Positions 7,950-26,122 of a DNA stretch of 32,308 bases are shown here, piece after piece. Below the pieces are notes generated by a model, which saw only the letters and a list, made by a program, of their open reading frames with translations, searched no databases and was not told the origin of the DNA. Every line of letters begins with the position of its first letter. Positions within the stretch are counted from its first letter, which is position 1. The stretch is from Oscillospiraceae bacterium (GTDB lineage Bacteria; Bacillota; Clostridia; Oscillospirales; CAG-272), in NCBI GenBank assembly GCA_015063395.1, contig SVUF01000009.1:1-32308 (forward strand). Direction: 5' to 3'. Position numbers and translations under genes: made by a program.

Positions 7950-7978
7950 TTGACAAAAAAACGACTGTGTGATATAAT
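7950..7978 (+). promoter_or_regulatory. Perfect-consensus sigma-A promoter of the phosphotransferase/YidC-TagF operon
   Basis: -35 TTGACA (7950-7955), exactly 17 nt, -10 TATAAT (7973-7978). The leader is about 66 nt. It contains an 8-bp A/T hairpin AAAAATGA/TCATTTTT (7988-8010) followed by T residues, which could act as a weak attenuator. Confidence 0.85.
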
Positions 7979-8051
7979 CAAGTGTTGAAAAATGAAATAT
8001 CATCATTTTTTTAATGTATAATTAATCTGATAACTAATAAGGTAATAATTT

Positions 8052-9848
8052 ATGGATAATAATATGGACAAAAAAAGCCGACGCAATGATCAGCGGAAAT
8101 CTCCAAAGATCAAGCTTATTGAGCTGTGGCAGGACAAAAGAAGCTTCAAGAAAAGATTGCTGATTTCAGTCTTCCCCATTTTCTTCTTCTATTTTACTTT
8201 TGTATTTTTCGGACCCTTTGAGATCGCAATGTCAAATGCGGAGTCGATAATTTTCAGCCCTGCAAGAGTGGCAAGCACCATGGGAATTCTTACAATAGTG
8301 CTTTTCAGTGCAACCACCTTTCTTGTTTCGCTTCTCCGAGGAAAGATCTTTAACTTTCTCTCAACCGCCTTTTTTGCCGCAGGCGTTGCAGGATATCTCC
8401 AGGGAAATGTTTTCAACGGAGATCTTATGGAAGCCCTTACAGGCGATGCCATTGCTTGGCAGACAATGGCAGGCAAAATGGTCGGTAACCTTATCGTATG
8501 GGCTCTCATCATTATTGCCGCATATATGCTTTTGTACTTCAGCAGAAAATATTGGCGCATCACACTGAAATATGTATCGATTTTCCTTGTTCTTATACAG
8601 GTCATTGGAATCATCAGCATATTTATAATGCCTAAAACAGGAGAAACCTACGAAAGCGTCACAATCGACTCCGACGTTTATTTTTCCAACGACGACCAAT
8701 ATCTCTTCTCATCAGGTCACAATATTCTTGTGGTTGTTCTTGACAGATTTGACTATGATTATGTTGAAGATGTGCTTGAAAAGGACCCCGAATTCTTCAA
8801 AAAGCTCGACGGTTTTACTTCATACACCAACGCCACAACAGAATTTGCAAGAACCGAGCCCGGTATAAACAACATTCTCACTGCTCTTGGCGGAAAGGAT
8901 GCCTACAAGCTTTCCAAGGCAGAATATTTCAACACCTCATGGACAAAGCTTACAGGTACAAGCTCCATTGAAAAGCTTTCAAAGGCAGGCTACAATGTGG
9001 GCATCTACGGAGATATCTCCACATGGTTTGGAGATGACGGCTCACAGCTTCAGTATATAAACAATATTTCTTATGAGCAGGAAAAGATCAATTATTCAGC
9101 ACTTATCGAAAATATGCTCAAGATCTCCGCATACAGATATACTCCCATTGCCCTGAAGCCATTCTATTGGTGCTACTCCGATGATGTAAGCTCGGGAGTT
9201 TACACAGAAAGCGAAAGATATGTAATTGATGAAGCTCAATACTATGAGGATCTTGCAGAGGAGTTTTTTGCAGATTCCGACACAAAGCAGTTCAAGCTTC
9301 TTCATTTCAACGGCCCCCATGCTCCCTATACACTTGATGCAAACGGCAAGAGAGTTCCTCTCGGAACGGATGTTGTTGAGCAGACAATGGGTTCATTCCA
9401 CATACTTTACGAGCTTTTCGCAAAGATGAAGGAAGCAGAAATTTATGACAACACGGAAATCTTCATTCTCGGTGACCACGGATCAGCCGTATCCGACACC
9501 AAGCCCCTTCAGAAAGCTACAAGGATCGGTCTTTTCCACAAGGAAGCAACTGCCATTGGCACTGAGCTTGAATATTCAGACATGCCCGTATCACAGATCA
9601 ACGTACTGCCCACAATTCTCAGAGCCGCAGGCGTTGAAAATTACAAGGATTACGGCACTCCTCTTGACGAAGTCGATGAGGACAATGTAAGATATTATTA
9701 TAAGAGCGTTGTAAAAAGAGTTACCGAGGGCGGTAACAATCACGAGGCAGAGGTCCACGTTTATAAGATCACAGGGGACGCCTCCAACTTCAAAAATTGG
9801 GAAAAGATCGATGTTTACGAAATTCCCGACAATTGTTGGTTCTATTAA
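8052..9848 (+). CDS. LtaS-like membrane phosphotransferase (alkaline phosphatase/sulfatase superfamily)
   Basis: This 598-aa protein has the architecture of lipoteichoic acid synthase. There are five predicted TM segments (about 38-60, 73-95, 99-118, 142-163, 172-193) and then an extracellular metal-dependent domain. Visible motifs are VVVLDRFD (metal ligand Asp231), ARTEPG (Thr268, aligning with the Thr nucleophile of LtaS), HFNGPHAPY (418-426) and GDHG (474-477, metal site). A Thr nucleophile and the lack of a CxPxR sulfatase motif point to phosphoglycerol or similar group transfer rather than sulfate hydrolysis. LtaS is typically about 650 aa. The ATG at 8052 has only a weak SD (AAGG), with a second Met five codons in. 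It is the first gene of a four-gene operon ending in a CDP-glycerol-type transferase, which supports a role in a glycerophosphate polymer. Substrate and product are inferred. Confidence 0.82.
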   Translation: MDNNMDKKSRRNDQRKSPKIKLIELWQDKRSFKKRLLISVFPIFFFYFTFVFFGPFEIAMSNAESIIFSPARVASTMGILTIVLFSATTFLVSLLRGKIFNFLSTAFFAAGVAGYLQGNVFNGDLMEALTGDAIAWQTMAGKMVGNLIVWALIIIAAYMLLYFSRKYWRITLKYVSIFLVLIQVIGIISIFIMPKTGETYESVTIDSDVYFSNDDQYLFSSGHNILVVVLDRFDYDYVEDVLEKDPEFFKKLDGFTSYTNATTEFARTEPGINNILTALGGKDAYKLSKAEYFNTSWTKLTGTSSIEKLSKAGYNVGIYGDISTWFGDDGSQLQYINNISYEQEKINYSALIENMLKISAYRYTPIALKPFYWCYSDDVSSGVYTESERYVIDEAQYYEDLAEEFFADSDTKQFKLLHFNGPHAPYTLDANGKRVPLGTDVVEQTMGSFHILYELFAKMKEAEIYDNTEIFILGDHGSAVSDTKPLQKATRIGLFHKEATAIGTELEYSDMPVSQINVLPTILRAAGVENYKDYGTPLDEVDEDNVRYYYKSVVKRVTEGGNNHEAEVHVYKITGDASNFKNWEKIDVYEIPDNCWFY

Positions 9849-9877
9849 GCAAAGCAAAAATATAAATTAATTTTAAA

Positions 9878-9912
9878 GTCTTTCAAGGTTCATATATACC
9901 GTTTTGAAAGAC
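9878..9912 (+). other. Hairpin in the operon between the phosphotransferase and the 93-aa gene
   Basis: Arms GTCTTTCAA (9878-9886) and TTGAAAGAC (9904-9912) match perfectly, with a further GGT/ACC inside. There is no T-run, so it is probably an mRNA processing or stability element rather than a terminator. The SD AAAGGAG of the next gene begins nine bases beyond it. Confidence 0.45.
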
Positions 9913-9934
9913 ACAACAAGAAAGGAGATCGGAC

Positions 9935-10216
9935 ATGAAAAAGAAGCTTGTTGCAGTTTTCGCAGTATTTTTTGTACTTGGAATGTTGATGTTCTCAACA
10001 GTATCAAGCGCATACCTTGATCCGTCGACAGCCACATTTATTGTACAGATCGTTGCAGGTGTTGCAGTTGCTTGCGGAGCGGCATTTACCTTTTATTTCA
10101 GAAAGATAAAGAGAAAGCTCAAGGGAAACAATGACGAAAACGCAGATAACGTACAGTCTCTTGACAACTCCAAGGACGGCTTTGACGATTCAGAATTTGA
10201 CGAAGATGACGAATAA
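9935..10216 (+). CDS. Small membrane protein with YLDPST motif
   Basis: This 93-aa protein of unknown function has three parts. First is a signal-peptide-like segment (residues 1-26: MKKK, a hydrophobic core, then SSA). Second is YLDPSTATFIVQ, running into a second hydrophobic helix (about 33-55) with a basic stop FRKIKRKLK. Third is a highly acidic C-terminal tail. Small proteins with a (Y/F)(I/L)DP(G/S)T motif before a TM helix are, from memory, often encoded beside sulfatase- or phosphotransferase-like genes, so a partner role is plausible. Cleavage after SSA would leave YLDPST as the new N-terminus. The SD AAAGGAG lies eight bases before the ATG. Its last 11 bases overlap the signal peptidase gene. 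Confidence 0.75.
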   Translation: MKKKLVAVFAVFFVLGMLMFSTVSSAYLDPSTATFIVQIVAGVAVACGAAFTFYFRKIKRKLKGNNDENADNVQSLDNSKDGFDDSEFDEDDE

Positions 10217-10730
10217 GTCTGAAACGAGATCAAAAATAAAACAAAATAAAGAAACGCTGATAACATTTGCCATATTGATAGCGGCGCTTGTTGCAGCGTT
10301 TCTTGTTTCCGGCTTTGTTGTTTCTCTTGGATTTATACACGGTCCCTCCATGGAAAACGCCCTGTATGACGGGGACATCGTTGTAATTTGGAAGCTTTTT
10401 GACAGTATACAAGCAGGTGATATAGTTGTTTGCAGACTGCCCGAGCTGACTGCGGGAACAATTGTAAAAAGAGTGGCAGCTGCTCCCGGAGATCATGTCC
10501 TCATCACAAAAACAGGGGAGCTTTATGTCAATTCGGAATATATCACCGTGTTTGGCAAGGAAACCTATACCCCAACAGAGCTTCAGCTTCAGGACGGGGA
10601 ATATTTTCTTCTCGGTGATAATCTCGAATTCTCCACCGATTCAAGAGATCAAAAATTCGGAATTATAAAGGACAAGTGCATCGAGGGAAAGGTCATCTAC
10701 AGGCTTTTTCCGAAAATGACTAAATATTAA
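10206..10730 (+). CDS. Type I signal peptidase (S26 family)
   Basis: This membrane serine protease removes signal peptides. The protein is 174 aa from the ATG at 10206. The frame is open further upstream to 10131, but that part lies inside the preceding gene and is not conserved-looking. A TM segment occupies about residues 17-43. The catalytic serine is Ser48 in GPSMENAL and the general-base lysine is Lys88 in GTIVKRVAAAPGD. Box E is LLGDNLEFSTDSRDQKFG (136-152). All catalytic parts are intact. The start overlaps the previous gene by 11 bp with no clear SD, implying translational coupling. Its place inside a polymer operon suggests a dedicated substrate, for example the 93-aa protein just upstream; this is inference. 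Confidence 0.92.
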   Translation: MTNKSETRSKIKQNKETLITFAILIAALVAAFLVSGFVVSLGFIHGPSMENALYDGDIVVIWKLFDSIQAGDIVVCRLPELTAGTIVKRVAAAPGDHVLITKTGELYVNSEYITVFGKETYTPTELQLQDGEYFLLGDNLEFSTDSRDQKFGIIKDKCIEGKVIYRLFPKMTKY

Positions 10731-10750
10731 CATAAAACGGAGAAAAAATT

Positions 10751-12865
10751 ATGGATATCATAGGCGAAATACTCGGAACTCCACTGGGCTATGTGTTGAA
10801 GCTTTGCTATGACATATTCAAGGATTACGGATTGGCAATTATCATATTTACTCTTTTGACAAAGGTGATACTTTTCCCTGTATCTCTTCTTGTTCAGAAA
10901 AACTCGGTAAAAATGATCAAAATGAAGCCCCAGCTCGACCAGCTAAAATACCAGTACGTTGATGACAAGGACGCGCTTCTTGACGCGCAAAGCGAGCTTT
11001 ATAAAAAGGAAAAATACAGCCCCTTTGCAGGAATGAGCCCTCTTTTTATACAGCTTCCCCTTATCTTCGGTCTTATTGATGTTGTTTACAGACCCTTAAA
11101 GCACATTCTGCACATTCCCGCAGAGGTTATAAACGCATTTGTCGAAAAAGCAAAGGAGCTTTCGGGACTTGCAGATCTTGGTTCCGCCCCTGAGCTTAAG
11201 GTAATGCAGCTTGTGTCTGACGGTAAAAACTACGATGCCTTTATGTCTCTTGAGCAAGGCGCACTTTCAGGATATGATGTTGGCGGATTTATTGAAAAAA
11301 TGCAGTCCATCAACATGAGCTTCCTGGGTATTGACCTTTCAAGCGTACCCACCCTCGCCTTAAATCTTTTGTTCCTCATACCTCTGTTTGCAGGAATTTC
11401 CGCGCTTTTGATGTGTATTGTACAGAACAAGATCAATGTACTCCAGATCGAGCAGGGATTTTTCGGTCGCTGGGGAATGACCATATTCATGATCGCATTC
11501 TCAACATATTTCGCGTTCCTTGTTCCCGGCGGTGTTGGTCTTTATTGGATCTTCGGAAACCTGTTTTCAATTCCTGTAATGTATTTGGTCAATATGATCT
11601 ACAATCCCAACAAATACATTGACTACAAGACCCTGAATAATCTTAAGGAAAAAGCAAAGGAAGAAGCAAAGATCAACCGGGAAAACAAAGCCCTTTCAAA
11701 AAAATATTACAAAGAGATCTGCCGCGGAGACAACCTTCAGAACATGGATCTTGTGTTCTATTCCGAAGGCAGCGGATTTTATAAGTATTTTGAAAACATC
11801 ATTGAATCAATACTGAAAAACTCCGACATTACCATAACTTACATTACAAATGACCCTAAGGACGCAATTTTCAAGAAGAACAATCCCCGCATCAAGCCCT
11901 ATTATATCAGCGGTAATCAGCTTATTACACTGATGATGAAGCTTGAATGTAAGATCGTTGTTATGACCACCCCGGACCTTGAAAAATATCATATCAAGCG
12001 TTCTAAAATGAAGAAGAACATTGAATACATCTATGTGGACCACGGCTGTACCTCTCTGAACCTTACCTACAGAACGGGCGCCCTTGACTATTTTGACACA
12101 GTATTTGTTGTCAGCCGCAGTCAAGGACTTGAAATCAGAGCCATGGAAAACCTGAGAAACACCCACAAAAAGAGAATTGTAAAATGCGGCTATGGCCTTA
12201 TGGACAATATGCTTGAGGCTTACAGCAAGAAGGAAAAGAAGGAAAACGAGAAGCCCGTTATCCTCATAGCTCCCTCGTGGCAGTATGACAATATCCTCGA
12301 CAGCTGTATCGATGACATCGTAAACGATCTTGTTTGCGACAAATACAAGGTAATAATCAGACCTCACCCCCAGTATATCAAGCGTTTCCCTGTAAGAATG
12401 GAGGAAATGTTTGAAAGATACAAGGATAAGCTTTCCGAGGACTTCATCATTCAGACGGATTTCTCATCAACCGACACGGTATATAATTCCGATATAATGA
12501 TCACCGACTGGTCGGGAATCGCCTTTGAATACAGCTTTACAACCAACAGACCCACACTTTTTGTAAACACACAAATGAAGGTTGTAAACAAGGACTACAA
12601 AAAGATCTCCATTGAACCCTTCGATATTACAGGCAGAAATAAGGTTGGACGTTCAATCGAAAAATCAGAGTGCTGCAACATTTCAAAAACCGTAGAAGAC
12701 TTCCTTGTTCATAAGGACGACTACGCAGAACAGATCAGTAATCTTCGAAACGAGTATTTCTACAATCTCGGATCAAGCGGAGAGGCAGGAGCTGACTATA
12801 TTATCCGCAGAATTAAAGGTCTTCCTCTCGGTAACACAAACAAAGATACAAACAAAGATAACTAA
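10751..12865 (+). CDS. Fusion of YidC/Oxa1 insertase domain and CDP-glycerol glycerophosphotransferase (TagB/TagF) domain
   Basis: This is a 704-aa two-domain protein. Residues 1-290 are a complete YidC/Oxa1 domain. They include DYGLAIIIFTLLTKVILFP with Lys38 at the groove-charge position, a cytoplasmic K-rich hairpin (50-90), MSPLFIQLPLIFGLIDVVY (95-113) and three further TM helices ending VGLYWIFGNLFSIPVMYLVN. A charged linker (295-320) leads to a glycerophosphotransferase domain (about 330-690). It carries VDHGCTSLN (429-437), IIRPHPQY (535-542) and MITDWSGIAFEYSF (583-596), the three marks of TagB/TagF enzymes that move glycerol phosphate from CDP-glycerol. The frame is continuous and the linker hydrophilic, so I see a true fusion and not an error. 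SD CGGAG. It lies 20 bp after the signal peptidase gene and is closed by a terminator. Confidence 0.9.
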   Translation: MDIIGEILGTPLGYVLKLCYDIFKDYGLAIIIFTLLTKVILFPVSLLVQKNSVKMIKMKPQLDQLKYQYVDDKDALLDAQSELYKKEKYSPFAGMSPLFIQLPLIFGLIDVVYRPLKHILHIPAEVINAFVEKAKELSGLADLGSAPELKVMQLVSDGKNYDAFMSLEQGALSGYDVGGFIEKMQSINMSFLGIDLSSVPTLALNLLFLIPLFAGISALLMCIVQNKINVLQIEQGFFGRWGMTIFMIAFSTYFAFLVPGGVGLYWIFGNLFSIPVMYLVNMIYNPNKYIDYKTLNNLKEKAKEEAKINRENKALSKKYYKEICRGDNLQNMDLVFYSEGSGFYKYFENIIESILKNSDITITYITNDPKDAIFKKNNPRIKPYYISGNQLITLMMKLECKIVVMTTPDLEKYHIKRSKMKKNIEYIYVDHGCTSLNLTYRTGALDYFDTVFVVSRSQGLEIRAMENLRNTHKKRIVKCGYGLMDNMLEAYSKKEKKENEKPVILIAPSWQYDNILDSCIDDIVNDLVCDKYKVIIRPHPQYIKRFPVRMEEMFERYKDKLSEDFIIQTDFSSTDTVYNSDIMITDWSGIAFEYSFTTNRPTLFVNTQMKVVNKDYKKISIEPFDITGRNKVGRSIEKSECCNISKTVEDFLVHKDDYAEQISNLRNEYFYNLGSSGEAGADYIIRRIKGLPLGNTNKDTNKDN

Positions 12866-12871
12866 AAAAAT

Positions 12872-12909
12872 GACTGTAAAACTCCCACGAGCTTTTACAG
12901 TCTTTTTTT
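12872..12909 (+). terminator. Terminator of the phosphotransferase/YidC-TagF operon
   Basis: A perfect 10-bp stem GACTGTAAAA/TTTTACAGTC (12872-12881 with 12893-12902) is followed by seven T residues. Confidence 0.92.
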
Positions 12910-13714: not shown

Positions 13715-14260
13715 ATGACAATTTCCGAAAAAGTTGCATACCTTAAGGGTATGATGGAAGGCATGGATCTCGACACAGAAAAGGGCAACGGCAAGCTTCT
13801 TGCAAAGATCGTTGAAATTCTTGATGACATGGCTCTTGAAATTGAGGATCTTTCCGATGAAGCAGTTCAGCTCCGCGACTACTGCGACGAGCTTGATTCA
13901 GATCTTGGAGACGTTGAAGAATATCTTCTTGAAGAGGCTGAAAGTGACGATTGCTCATGCGAAGGCTGTGAAGGCTGCGACGGTTACGACGCAGATGACG
14001 AAGACTTCGATTGGGATGACGAAGACGACGAAGACTATGATGAGGACGATTTTGACGAAGATGAAGAAGATGACGACATCATAGAAGCTATGTGTCCCGA
14101 ATGCGGTGAGGAGATCTTTTTTGATCTTGACATTGATCCCGCAGACATCATCTGTCCCAGTTGCGGAAAGCACGTTTCATTTGTTTGCGACGGTGATTGC
14201 GAAGGCTGCAGCGGTTGCGACAGCGAATGTGACGAGGATCTTGACGAGGACGACGAATAA
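13715..14260 (+). CDS. CD1247 N-terminal domain protein with zinc ribbon and acidic, Cys-rich tail
   Basis: This 181-aa protein resembles the CD1247 family encoded next to efp in Clostridia; its function is unknown. Residues 1-72 form the helical conserved N-terminal domain (MTISEKVAYLKGMMEGM...). A highly acidic low-complexity region (about 76-122) contains a CSCEGCEGC cluster (80-88). A zinc ribbon follows with CPEC (127-130) and CPSC (147-150). The end has a second Cys cluster, CDGDCEGCSGCDSEC (158-172), before an all-acidic tail. The extra Cys clusters sharing the CEGC.GCD pattern look like an internal duplication and could bind more metal. SD AAAAGGAG before the ATG at 13715. Confidence 0.85.
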   Translation: MTISEKVAYLKGMMEGMDLDTEKGNGKLLAKIVEILDDMALEIEDLSDEAVQLRDYCDELDSDLGDVEEYLLEEAESDDCSCEGCEGCDGYDADDEDFDWDDEDDEDYDEDDFDEDEEDDDIIEAMCPECGEEIFFDLDIDPADIICPSCGKHVSFVCDGDCEGCSGCDSECDEDLDEDDE

Positions 14261-17016: not shown

Positions 17017-17045
17017 ATTATATCAAATATAAAGGTAAATGTCAA
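17017..17045 (-). promoter_or_regulatory. Perfect-consensus promoter of parA
   Basis: On the minus strand, -35 TTGACA (17045-17040), 17-nt spacer, -10 TATAAT (17022-17017), 30 bases from the parA ATG. A parS site lies immediately upstream. Confidence 0.85.
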
Positions 17046-24008: not shown

Positions 24009-25889
24009 TTAATTCTTCTTGTCTTCATCGTCCATTTCAGACTTTTCAATAAGACCTGTTTTTGCGTTTCCTGTCTTATTTTTTCCTGACTTGCTGTTTT
24101 TTTCATCGATCTTTTCCCTTTCGCTTTTGGGAAGATCATAGTATGACACCTTATCCTCGAGAACGGCATATTCGTCGTCATCGTCATCATACTTTGTCAC
24201 TTTCTTCTTTGATGACTGTATTATTTCCTTTTCTTGCTTCTTTTTTTCCTTTGGCTGCTTGCCCTTATATTCTCTTTCAGCAGCCTTATAATCCTCTTCT
24301 GTGTACACAGGGAAAGGATACATCTTTTTCAGTATAAACTGCTGAATAATTCCGAGAAGGCTCTGGAATATCCAATAGATACCAAGCATTGCGGGAACTG
24401 AGAAGCAGATAAATGTTGAAAGAGCAGGCATTGTAATATCCATGATCTTCATTGAAGCCATGGCATCGGGAGCCCCTTCCATTTTAGGAGGCTGATATGA
24501 CATTTTTCTTGTGATCTTCATACTGAAATAGTATGAAAGGAATACAAGAACGGGAACTAAAAGAAGAAGGTTGAATGTCTTTATATCGGGAGTATCCGCC
24601 ATATTAAAGCCATTAAAAAGTACAAAGTTTGGCATTGCAGATGCACTTTCTATATGACTTGTGAAATCATATGAGAAATTCAGATGCATGAATTCAACAA
24701 CTTCTTCAAAATGGTCGGAAATAAGCCCAATTACGTTGATATCATTGAGAGTTGTTGTAATTCCCTTGATATCTGTGAAATACTGTCTGATTATTGCCAT
24801 TGCATCAAGAGAAATTCCCGACATGAATGTAAGGGGCTCTCTGATCACACCGTAAAGGCAAATGAGGATCAGCATCTGGAGTATCATGGAAAGACAGCCG
24901 CCGCCCATCATACTGATGCCTTCCTTTTCCTGAGCCTGCTGGATCTCAGTCTGGCACTTCATCTGTGTTTCTCTGTCATTTCTTCCTTTATACTTGTTCA
25001 TAATGGCTCTTTGTGTAGGCGCGAACTTCGCCTGCTTCACCATGTTCTTCTGCTGCTTGATTCCTGTGGGGAAAAGCACCACCTTTATAACAATTGCAAA
25101 AAGGAATATGGCAAGAAGATAGTTTGACGTAATATCATAGAAAAACTTCATGACGATTCCCATGGGGCCCTTGACAAAATCAAGAATTCCATTGTAAATG
25201 CCGTCATTGATCTTTCCCTCTTCACTGAGTTCAACATCAGCTCTCTCTGCAAAGAAAACCCTCCATGAGTCCTTCATTTCAGTGGTGTATTCCACCTCCA
25301 TGATCTCTGTTGAGCAAACCTGACGTCTTGTTGTTGTTTCTGTTTTTTCGTAAAATTCAAGGATTATTTCGTATTTATTACCGGGAACAAGCTCTCTCAT
25401 TCCTCCGTCATAGGTATCAAGCACGAAATATATATATTCCTTGCCGCTGGCTTCATCAGTTTTTTTGGTTGTAGAGATGATGTCACTGCTTCCTGCGATC
25501 CAACCGTCTTTCTCAGCTTGATTATCTTTCTTTTCACGGTACAAAAATTCTACTACCGCAACAGTATCAAATGATGAATACTTTTCGTAAAGCTCTGCAA
25601 TTCTATCTTCTTCAACTCTTACATAAAAACCGTATTCAGCTTTTTTTCCTTCACCGTATTTACCAAAATACAATCCCGTCTTGGTCTGGTTATATGGCTC
25701 AGATCCAACCTTTTCGCCGCTGAGGCTTTCATATTTGATCTGTGTCTTGATTTCCTGATTTTCCGTTGTGACGGGTGCTTCTGTTGATTCTTCACCGTAT
25801 ACAGTAAAAATTGAAGATACGGCCATTATAATGACCATAATTACTGTTAAATATCCGAGAAGCTTTCTTTCTCTGTTTTTTCCGTTCAT
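24009..25889 (-). CDS. yidC: Membrane protein insertase YidC (canonical locus), with large extracytoplasmic domain
   Basis: This protein inserts and folds membrane proteins, alone or with SecYEG. The start is the ATG at 25889 (MNGKNRERKLLG, 626 aa) with GAGGT upstream. The longer frame to 25940 has no SD. It is far longer than Bacillus SpoIIIJ (about 260 aa). After the first TM (about 10-30) comes a soluble region of some 190 residues. The Oxa1 core follows with LLAIFLFAIVIKVVLFP (groove-charge Lys), GCLSMILQMLILICLYGVIREP, an inserted region and AMLGIYWIFQSLLGIIQQF. A long Lys/Asp-rich cytoplasmic tail (about 520-626) may bind ribosomes or RNA. A second YidC domain occurs in the fusion protein at 10751. 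Confidence 0.95.
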   Translation of the reverse strand: MNGKNRERKLLGYLTVIMVIIMAVSSIFTVYGEESTEAPVTTENQEIKTQIKYESLSGEKVGSEPYNQTKTGLYFGKYGEGKKAEYGFYVRVEEDRIAELYEKYSSFDTVAVVEFLYREKKDNQAEKDGWIAGSSDIISTTKKTDEASGKEYIYFVLDTYDGGMRELVPGNKYEIILEFYEKTETTTRRQVCSTEIMEVEYTTEMKDSWRVFFAERADVELSEEGKINDGIYNGILDFVKGPMGIVMKFFYDITSNYLLAIFLFAIVIKVVLFPTGIKQQKNMVKQAKFAPTQRAIMNKYKGRNDRETQMKCQTEIQQAQEKEGISMMGGGCLSMILQMLILICLYGVIREPLTFMSGISLDAMAIIRQYFTDIKGITTTLNDINVIGLISDHFEEVVEFMHLNFSYDFTSHIESASAMPNFVLFNGFNMADTPDIKTFNLLLLVPVLVFLSYYFSMKITRKMSYQPPKMEGAPDAMASMKIMDITMPALSTFICFSVPAMLGIYWIFQSLLGIIQQFILKKMYPFPVYTEEDYKAAEREYKGKQPKEKKKQEKEIIQSSKKKVTKYDDDDDEYAVLEDKVSYYDLPKSEREKIDEKNSKSGKNKTGNAKTGLIEKSEMDDEDKKN

Positions 25890-26122
25890 TATTACCTCTT
25901 TTTTGGTTACACCGAAAATAAAAAAGGTCAACGGAGCCAATTGTTTCGATTATATAATTATATATATTTTTTCTCCGCTTCCTCGCGGCTTTGTTTTCGG
26001 CTCATTCTTTTTCAAAACCGCTTTTCTCTCAACGAACGCAATTTTTGTTTTTTATGCCGTAATTCATTATCCACTAAAACCTGCTTTAAGGTATAGTTTA
26101 AATTATAAATTACAGTAAATAA

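Follow-up and report, generated by a model that had tools for sequence, protein, structure and literature searches.

Gene content and expression signals of the locus

The window, that is, the whole 32,308-nucleotide stretch of DNA analyzed here, is an entire contig (SVUF01000009.1) of the Oscillospiraceae bacterium assembly GCA_015063395.1, which comprises 1.96 Mb in 143 contigs and is 91% complete. It carries a unit of four genes that encode an LtaS-like enzyme, a 93-aa protein with a YLDPST motif (hereafter YLDP), a type I signal peptidase, and a fusion of a YidC-fold domain with a TagF-fold domain, preceded by a promoter and followed by a terminator (Table 1). The genes are separated by a gap of 86 bp, an 11-bp overlap (10206-10216), and a gap of 20 bp. 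The signal peptidase was read from the ATG at 10206, as the longer open frame (from 10131) only reads further upstream. Thus, the original prediction of a promoter-to-terminator operon of these four genes was confirmed as an observation.

Table 1. Features of the four-gene unit and related elements in the window
Feature	Position	Strand	Description	Evidence
Promoter	7950..7978	+	TTGACA-17-TATAAT with extended -10 (TG)	12/12 consensus positions
LtaS-like enzyme	8052..9848	+	598 aa; sulfatase fold; five predicted N-terminal TM helices and an extracellular catalytic domain	Sulfatase PF00884, 51 bits (cut-off 25); model pLDDT 88.5, helices 32-61, 70-94, 97-121, 136-163, 165-192; N224, D231, T268, H423, D475, H476, K497 in 40 of 40 relatives
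YLDPST microprotein	9935..10216	+	93 aa; signal peptide, predicted cut before Y27, one TM helix, basic then acidic cytoplasmic tail	Over no Pfam cut-off; Y27 and D29 in 56 of 56
Type I signal peptidase	10206..10730	+	174 aa; Ser48-Lys88	TIGR02227, 104.5 bits (cut-off 47); SPase PF10502, 94 bits (22.9); S48 and K88 in 3 of 3 aligned
YidC-TagF fusion	10751..12865	+	704 aa	PF02096 and PF04464 in one ORF
YidC-fold domain	10751..11680	+	Residues 1-310 of the fusion	60KD_IMP PF02096, 114 bits (35); TIGR03592, 100.6 bits (84.3); K38 is K/R in 52 of 52
TagF-fold CMP-dependent transferase domain	11711..12865	+	From residue 321 of the fusion	Glyphos_transf PF04464, 47.2 bits (22.1); H431, R537, H539, D586, W587, S588, E593 in 52 of 52
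Intrinsic terminator	12872..12909	+	10-bp perfect stem and T run	Hairpin at about 12872-12902, -14.6 kcal/mol, z -6.6
Second perfect promoter copy	17017..17045	-	TTGACA-17-TATAAT
Ordinary yidC	24009..25940	-		Matched in the search with the fusion

The perfect promoter is not unique here, since with at most one mismatch the pattern occurs 9 times in the window against 0.41 expected. The terminator hairpin was identified by folding, whereas a previous scan of the sequence did not list it. Because the window also encodes an ordinary YidC, the fusion is a second YidC of this genome.

To examine whether the encoded proteins retain the features of the enzymes they resemble, we compared their sequences and predicted structures with known proteins. 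The models were confident (pLDDT 91.0, and 88.5 for the LtaS-like enzyme). For the fusion, Foldseek ranked TagF (PDB 3l7k) first (E 2.5e-10) and also found Bacillus halodurans YidC. VIA alignment gave Z 20.5 to 3l7k (rmsd 4.8, 328 aligned), a value tied with many epimerase and glycosyltransferase chains, and Z 19.0 to B. halodurans YidC2 (3wo6; rmsd 2.4, 193 aligned). The latter was also the closest PDB sequence to the YidC part, whereas the TagF half found no PDB chain by sequence. Residue K38, which is K in 50 and R in 2 of 52 sequences, aligned with an Arg of B. halodurans YidC2 that is the positive groove residue of the insertase. As in the wall teichoic acid polymerases TagF/TarL (3l7k, 8va1), two His residues of the TagF domain are invariant, but here the domain is fused to YidC or YLDP.

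For the LtaS-like enzyme, the profile of its family matched Staphylococcus aureus LtaS (2w5q), the LTA synthase, first among PDB sequences, and the five TM helices ahead of a sulfatase fold agree with that enzyme. The invariant T268, H423, D475, and H476 correspond to the nucleophile Thr and metal-binding Asp/His of LtaS. However, no curated NCBIfam LtaS model matched the protein up to E 1; its first Foldseek match was PbgA/YejM, and both Foldseek and VIA ranked sulfatases and PbgA/YejM beside LtaS, so the LtaS label rests on the sequence profile and on topology. A pseudo-enzyme was also considered, given the PbgA/YejM match, but was not adopted because all catalytic residues are present.

Conservation and permuted fusion of the modules

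To examine whether the unit is conserved, as had been set beforehand as a test, we first searched 391 genomes of the class with the fusion and found it in five genomes of four families, the window's included. This is a lower bound, since at most two candidates per genome were scored. The neighborhoods of these genes hold the same partners in other orders. We then scanned 84,980 species genomes with the TagF half, which gave 459 confirmed relatives, and the best 80 loci were kept, mainly from Clostridia but also from MAGs labeled Treponema, Victivallales, and Planctomycetia; cultured gut bacteria (Roseburia inulinivorans, Ruminococcus flavefaciens, and Clostridium aminobutyricum) were among the carriers. 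Local profiles built from five seed loci (the window and loci L032-L035; loci are hereafter given as L numbers and genomes as G numbers) determined the YidC-TagF fusion in 79 of 80 loci, a YLDP protein in 66, an LtaS-like protein in 44, and a signal peptidase in 13. The single locus counted as not fused, L063, is cut by a contig end. With the seeds, which match by construction, the figures were 84, 71, 48, and 16 of 85. As the 80 loci were chosen by the TagF half, they favor close relatives, and some are near-identical (L105/L108 and L101/L103/L104). All 71 YLDP genes lie on the strand of the fusion, 45 of them within 100 bp.

Furthermore, in a class sample of 382 genomes, which like the 391 above contained all five fusion genomes, the YLDP profile hit seven: all five fusion genomes and only 2 of the 377 others, G158 and G081 (Fisher 3e-10, uncorrected for kinship). 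In G158, the YLDP helix is the N terminus of a TagF-like protein. By contrast, none of 17 ordinary YidC loci, about 4 kb each, hit the YLDP, LtaS, or nucleotidyltransferase models. A chance or merely local gene order was therefore rejected. A dedicated signal peptidase, to which the original prediction gave weight, is optional, being absent from 69 of 85 loci, whereas the small protein is more central than had been thought. LtaS-like genes were missing from 37 of 85 loci, although eight loci hold a divergent protein that we read as sulfatase-like; the one example scanned was unmatched in Pfam and NCBIfam.

The modules are also shuffled by fusion. In L080, LtaS (16-554), YidC (569-828), and TagF (823-1199) lie in one 1200-aa ORF, and YLDP is fused to LtaS in L033, L106, L113, and L116. 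In L036 (two pairs), L037, L039, and L140, YLDP-TagF stands next to a second ORF with an N-terminal YidC-like part and an LtaS domain; this YidC part was matched by profile in one L036 protein, L039, and L140, but was read from sequence only in L037 and the other L036 protein. Of eight TagF-only loci, seven carry a YIDPGTG motif fused to TagF and six an LtaS-like neighbor. These orders suit the expected topology, with the N terminus of YidC outside and its C terminus inside, TagF inside, and the LtaS domain outside. Taken together, linkage and permutation indicated that the four modules form one machine.

CTP-activating enzymes and the probable donor

The original prediction took TagF-type enzymes to use CDP-glycerol inside the cell and LtaS-type enzymes to transfer glycerol phosphate outside, and suggested an envelope-polymer machine distinct from the described LTA and wall teichoic acid systems, with a YidC-based route worth considering. 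To verify this assumption, the window's own genome was searched for the enzymes of the standard pathways. This 91% complete assembly has one PF00884 gene and one PF04464 gene, both those of the unit, no TagD (TIGR01518) at E<=1e-3, no WecG/TagA (PF03808), and one ABC-2 permease gene. Among 50 fusion genomes searched, which we had chosen from the 85 loci, only 4 had a TagD over cut-off, including two close relatives (G393 and G394). This interpretation was therefore partly supported: the unit differs from standard LTA and wall teichoic acid systems and a YidC-based step is still worth considering, but the CDP-glycerol donor was not supported. A teichoic-acid-like machine, in which TagF would use CDP-glycerol, LtaS phosphatidylglycerol, and YidC would serve export, still has in its favor the intact TagF and LtaS folds and catalytic residues, the sequence match to S. 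aureus LtaS, and the four TagD-bearing genomes. Given the undetected TagD and TagA and the activators described next, however, we consider it unlikely.

Clustering of neighboring proteins and family scans found that the system travels with LicC/PntC-type CTP nucleotidyltransferases, PEP mutase (TIGR02320), phosphonopyruvate decarboxylase (TIGR03297), PhnW (TIGR03301), and a nucleotidyltransferase fused to a CobD/HisC-like PLP enzyme. By local search, a nucleotidyltransferase was present in 51 of 85 loci, PEP mutase and decarboxylase in 14, PhnW in 8, and the PLP-fused nucleotidyltransferase in 14. The remaining 34 loci, several of which are short contigs and one of which is the window, showed no nucleotidyltransferase. 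PEP mutase over cut-off occurred in 17 of the 50 fusion genomes against 29 of 382 class genomes (p 1e-6, uncorrected for kinship), but not in the window's genome, so any phosphonate there would have to be imported.

Supportively, in L040-L044, which share the gene order of the window, the operon continues with a three-gene PhnS2-T2-U2-like importer and an HTH-nucleotidyltransferase. The best NCBIfam matches of the importer are "putative 2-AEP ABC transporter" models, though below their equivalog cut-offs. The same four genes stand together on another contig of the window's own genome, with 54-68% identity, and the nucleotidyltransferase there best matched pneumococcal LicC in the PDB (90 bits over the whole domain), above PntC (41 bits). 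Hence, CDP-glycerol is unlikely as the donor and a CMP-activated amino- or choline-type head group is likely, whichever it may be.

TagF-like enzymes with non-glycerol donors have been proposed before. The LicC-like CD0242/PA1090 and the TagF-like CD0244/PA1091 are proposed to make and use CDP-threonine or its methylated forms (PMC10714395; PMC11833859). In Clostridioides difficile type A flagellin modification, CD0242 plus CD0244 are proposed to move phosphothreonine from CDP-threonine (PMC10714395); no outer enzyme and no YidC, YLDP, or LtaS module appears in that route as described. 2-AEP has been reported on C. difficile flagellin glycan (PMC8861647). This precedent leaves a second alternative, in which the unit would hold two separate activities: the TagF domain would decorate lipid-linked glycan in the cytoplasm, the LtaS-like enzyme would add glycerol phosphate outside, and YidC would be only an anchor or a private insertase for YLDP and LtaS. 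The conserved groove residue is expected of an insertase, and YLDP is a small one-helix protein of the kind that YidC inserts. Nevertheless, YidC is fused to either enzyme, and to both in L080, and YLDP to either enzyme, which is hard to explain for a mere anchor or for independent steps; we thus regard this alternative as possible but less probable.

The YLDP microprotein and the proposed trans-membrane relay

To characterize YLDP, for which NCBIfam and Pfam scans and a search of papers for the motif gave nothing, we aligned its homologs. Y27 and D29 are the only residues found in 56 of 56. Of 64 proteins with a Y-x-D-P motif, 49 have a signal-peptide-like N terminus, all 49 with A, G, S, or C just before the Tyr, whereas seven more proteins read Y-I-D-A or Y-I-D-V and have short N termini. 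All 16 loci with a signal peptidase have the signal-peptide form, against 33 of 55 without (p 0.001, uncorrected for kinship), suggesting that YLDP is the substrate of this peptidase.

In other Bacillota classes, YLDP-type proteins sit without TagF or YidC beside Pfam Sulfatase proteins and a 453-474 aa methyltransferase-like protein (L151-L154) or beside the sulfatase alone (L155), and one (L156) has neither. In L139, one lies near MBOAT and AlgX-type genes, but this stays a single case on a 5.5-kb contig, since a search for the AYLDPGAGS protein found 1 of 22 genomes of the G081 family, only G081 itself, and none in plasmids. YLDP thus looks like a general partner of outer transferases, with the inner partner varying. 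It also might be chiefly a subunit or regulator of sulfatase-fold envelope enzymes, with the TagF/YidC link as one of several partnerships. This seems doubtful, as YLDP stays in fusion loci where no LtaS-like gene was found nearby (e.g., L074, L084, and L101) and is fused to TagF in seven of eight TagF-only proteins.

Based on these data, the reading that we favor, with a probability of about 0.5, is a trans-membrane machine of four modules plus a helper. A phospho- or phosphono-alcohol of the 2-aminoethylphosphonate, phosphocholine, or phosphoethanolamine class would be activated with CTP by a LicC/PntC-like nucleotidyltransferase and taken from CMP by the TagF domain in the cytoplasm. It would then cross the membrane with help from the YidC-fold domain and YLDP, and the LtaS-like enzyme would put it on a surface glycan; in this view, the donor of the LtaS-like enzyme is probably not only phosphatidylglycerol, and the signal peptidase matures YLDP so that its invariant Tyr becomes the new extracellular N terminus. 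The analysis itself establishes the gene content, the linkage, the permutation by fusion, the intact catalytic residues, the association with CTP activation and phosphonate genes, the presence of the importer plus nucleotidyltransferase set in the own genome, and the absence there of a detectable TagD, TagA, or second TagF or LtaS. The identity of the donor, the direction of transfer, the acceptor, and the roles of YLDP and the YidC fold are inferred, and no direct evidence exists for donor, acceptor, or translocation.

A bolder and improbable, though not excluded, hypothesis is that YLDP is a covalent phosphoryl shuttle. The TagF domain would move the CMP-activated group onto the invariant Tyr, reached through the YidC-fold groove, and the loaded Tyr would be presented outside to the LtaS-fold enzyme for transfer to a glycan. 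This is by analogy only with the Dlt and PatAB acyl relays, in which an invariant outer Tyr of a small one-helix protein or peptide, such as DltX, carries the acyl group from a cytoplasmic donor and membrane enzyme to an outer transferase (PMC12148441). No homology is claimed: those relays move acyl and not phosphoryl groups, employ MBOAT/SGNH instead of YidC/TagF/LtaS, and the DltX Tyr is near the C terminus, whereas that of YLDP, whose topology and extracellular Tyr are predicted only, is near the mature N terminus. If true, this would be a phosphate counterpart of these relays, a new catalytic use of the YidC fold, and a candidate for the missing last steps of bacterial phosphonate tailoring.

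CTP activation of AEP or phosphocholine is a feature of known phosphonyl tailoring by PntC/LicC and LicD-like transferases, but how CTP-activated phosphonates and related head groups reach the outer surface is an open step. The 2019 PntC paper, the one relevant paper returned by a search for the transferase acting after PntC, calls the later steps enigmatic and names LicD-like enzymes, and its text mentions no YidC, sulfatase, or glycerophosphotransferase (PMC6697681). No paper describing a YidC-TagF fusion was found in a search restricted to open-licence literature, which leaves out most subscription journals. Gut-type Clostridia carry a conserved, apparently undescribed four-module membrane machine, which probably takes a phosphate or phosphonate head group activated with CTP inside the cell and attaches it to sugars on the cell surface. 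On this reading, the module set gives that open step named genes, in cultured gut bacteria too, and it would also be the first case known to us in which a YidC-fold domain is built into an envelope-modifying enzyme.

Additional features of the window and its own genome

The own genome (G000) carries a locus that was treated here as the partner locus, in which the genes stand in the same order as in the operon tail of loci L041-L044.

Coordinates of the partner locus and of single features
Location	Position	Strand	Feature
G000 contig C16, locus L122	8833-13225	-	PhnS2-T2-U2-like importer plus HTH-LicC-like nucleotidyltransferase
Window	13715-14260	+	Unidentified, very acidic 181-aa protein with CxxC motifs, beside the efp-like gene
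Window	17017-17045	-	Second perfect TTGACA-17-TATAAT in the window
Locus L139	4971-5321	-	AYLDPGAGS protein

YLDP-type proteins in other settings

In loci L151-L154, from other Bacillota classes, a YLDPGTGS protein lies beside a 453-474 aa 'SSFRDP...YPYEWS' methyltransferase-like protein, for which no Pfam match over cut-off was found in the two scanned, and a Pfam Sulfatase protein, forming an unnamed three-gene set without TagF or YidC. The L139 protein occurs in the same contig as MBOAT and AlgX-like genes, although this is a single case on a short contig.

Recurrent neighbors of the fusion

A recurrent pair was found upstream of the fusion in loci L035, L053, L064, L071, L078, L086, L100, and L111, comprising a 471-527 aa protein that reads as a divergent sulfatase and a 176-475 aa protein (neighbor clusters 13 and 12, respectively); one example of each was scanned, and neither matched Pfam or NCBIfam. 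Furthermore, loci L045, L053, L059, L062, L072, L075, L087, L089, L092, L098, L105, L108, L114, and L118 carry a nucleotidyltransferase fused to a CobD/HisC-like PLP enzyme, which could make CDP-ethanolamine or CDP-aminopropanol from a phospho-amino acid.
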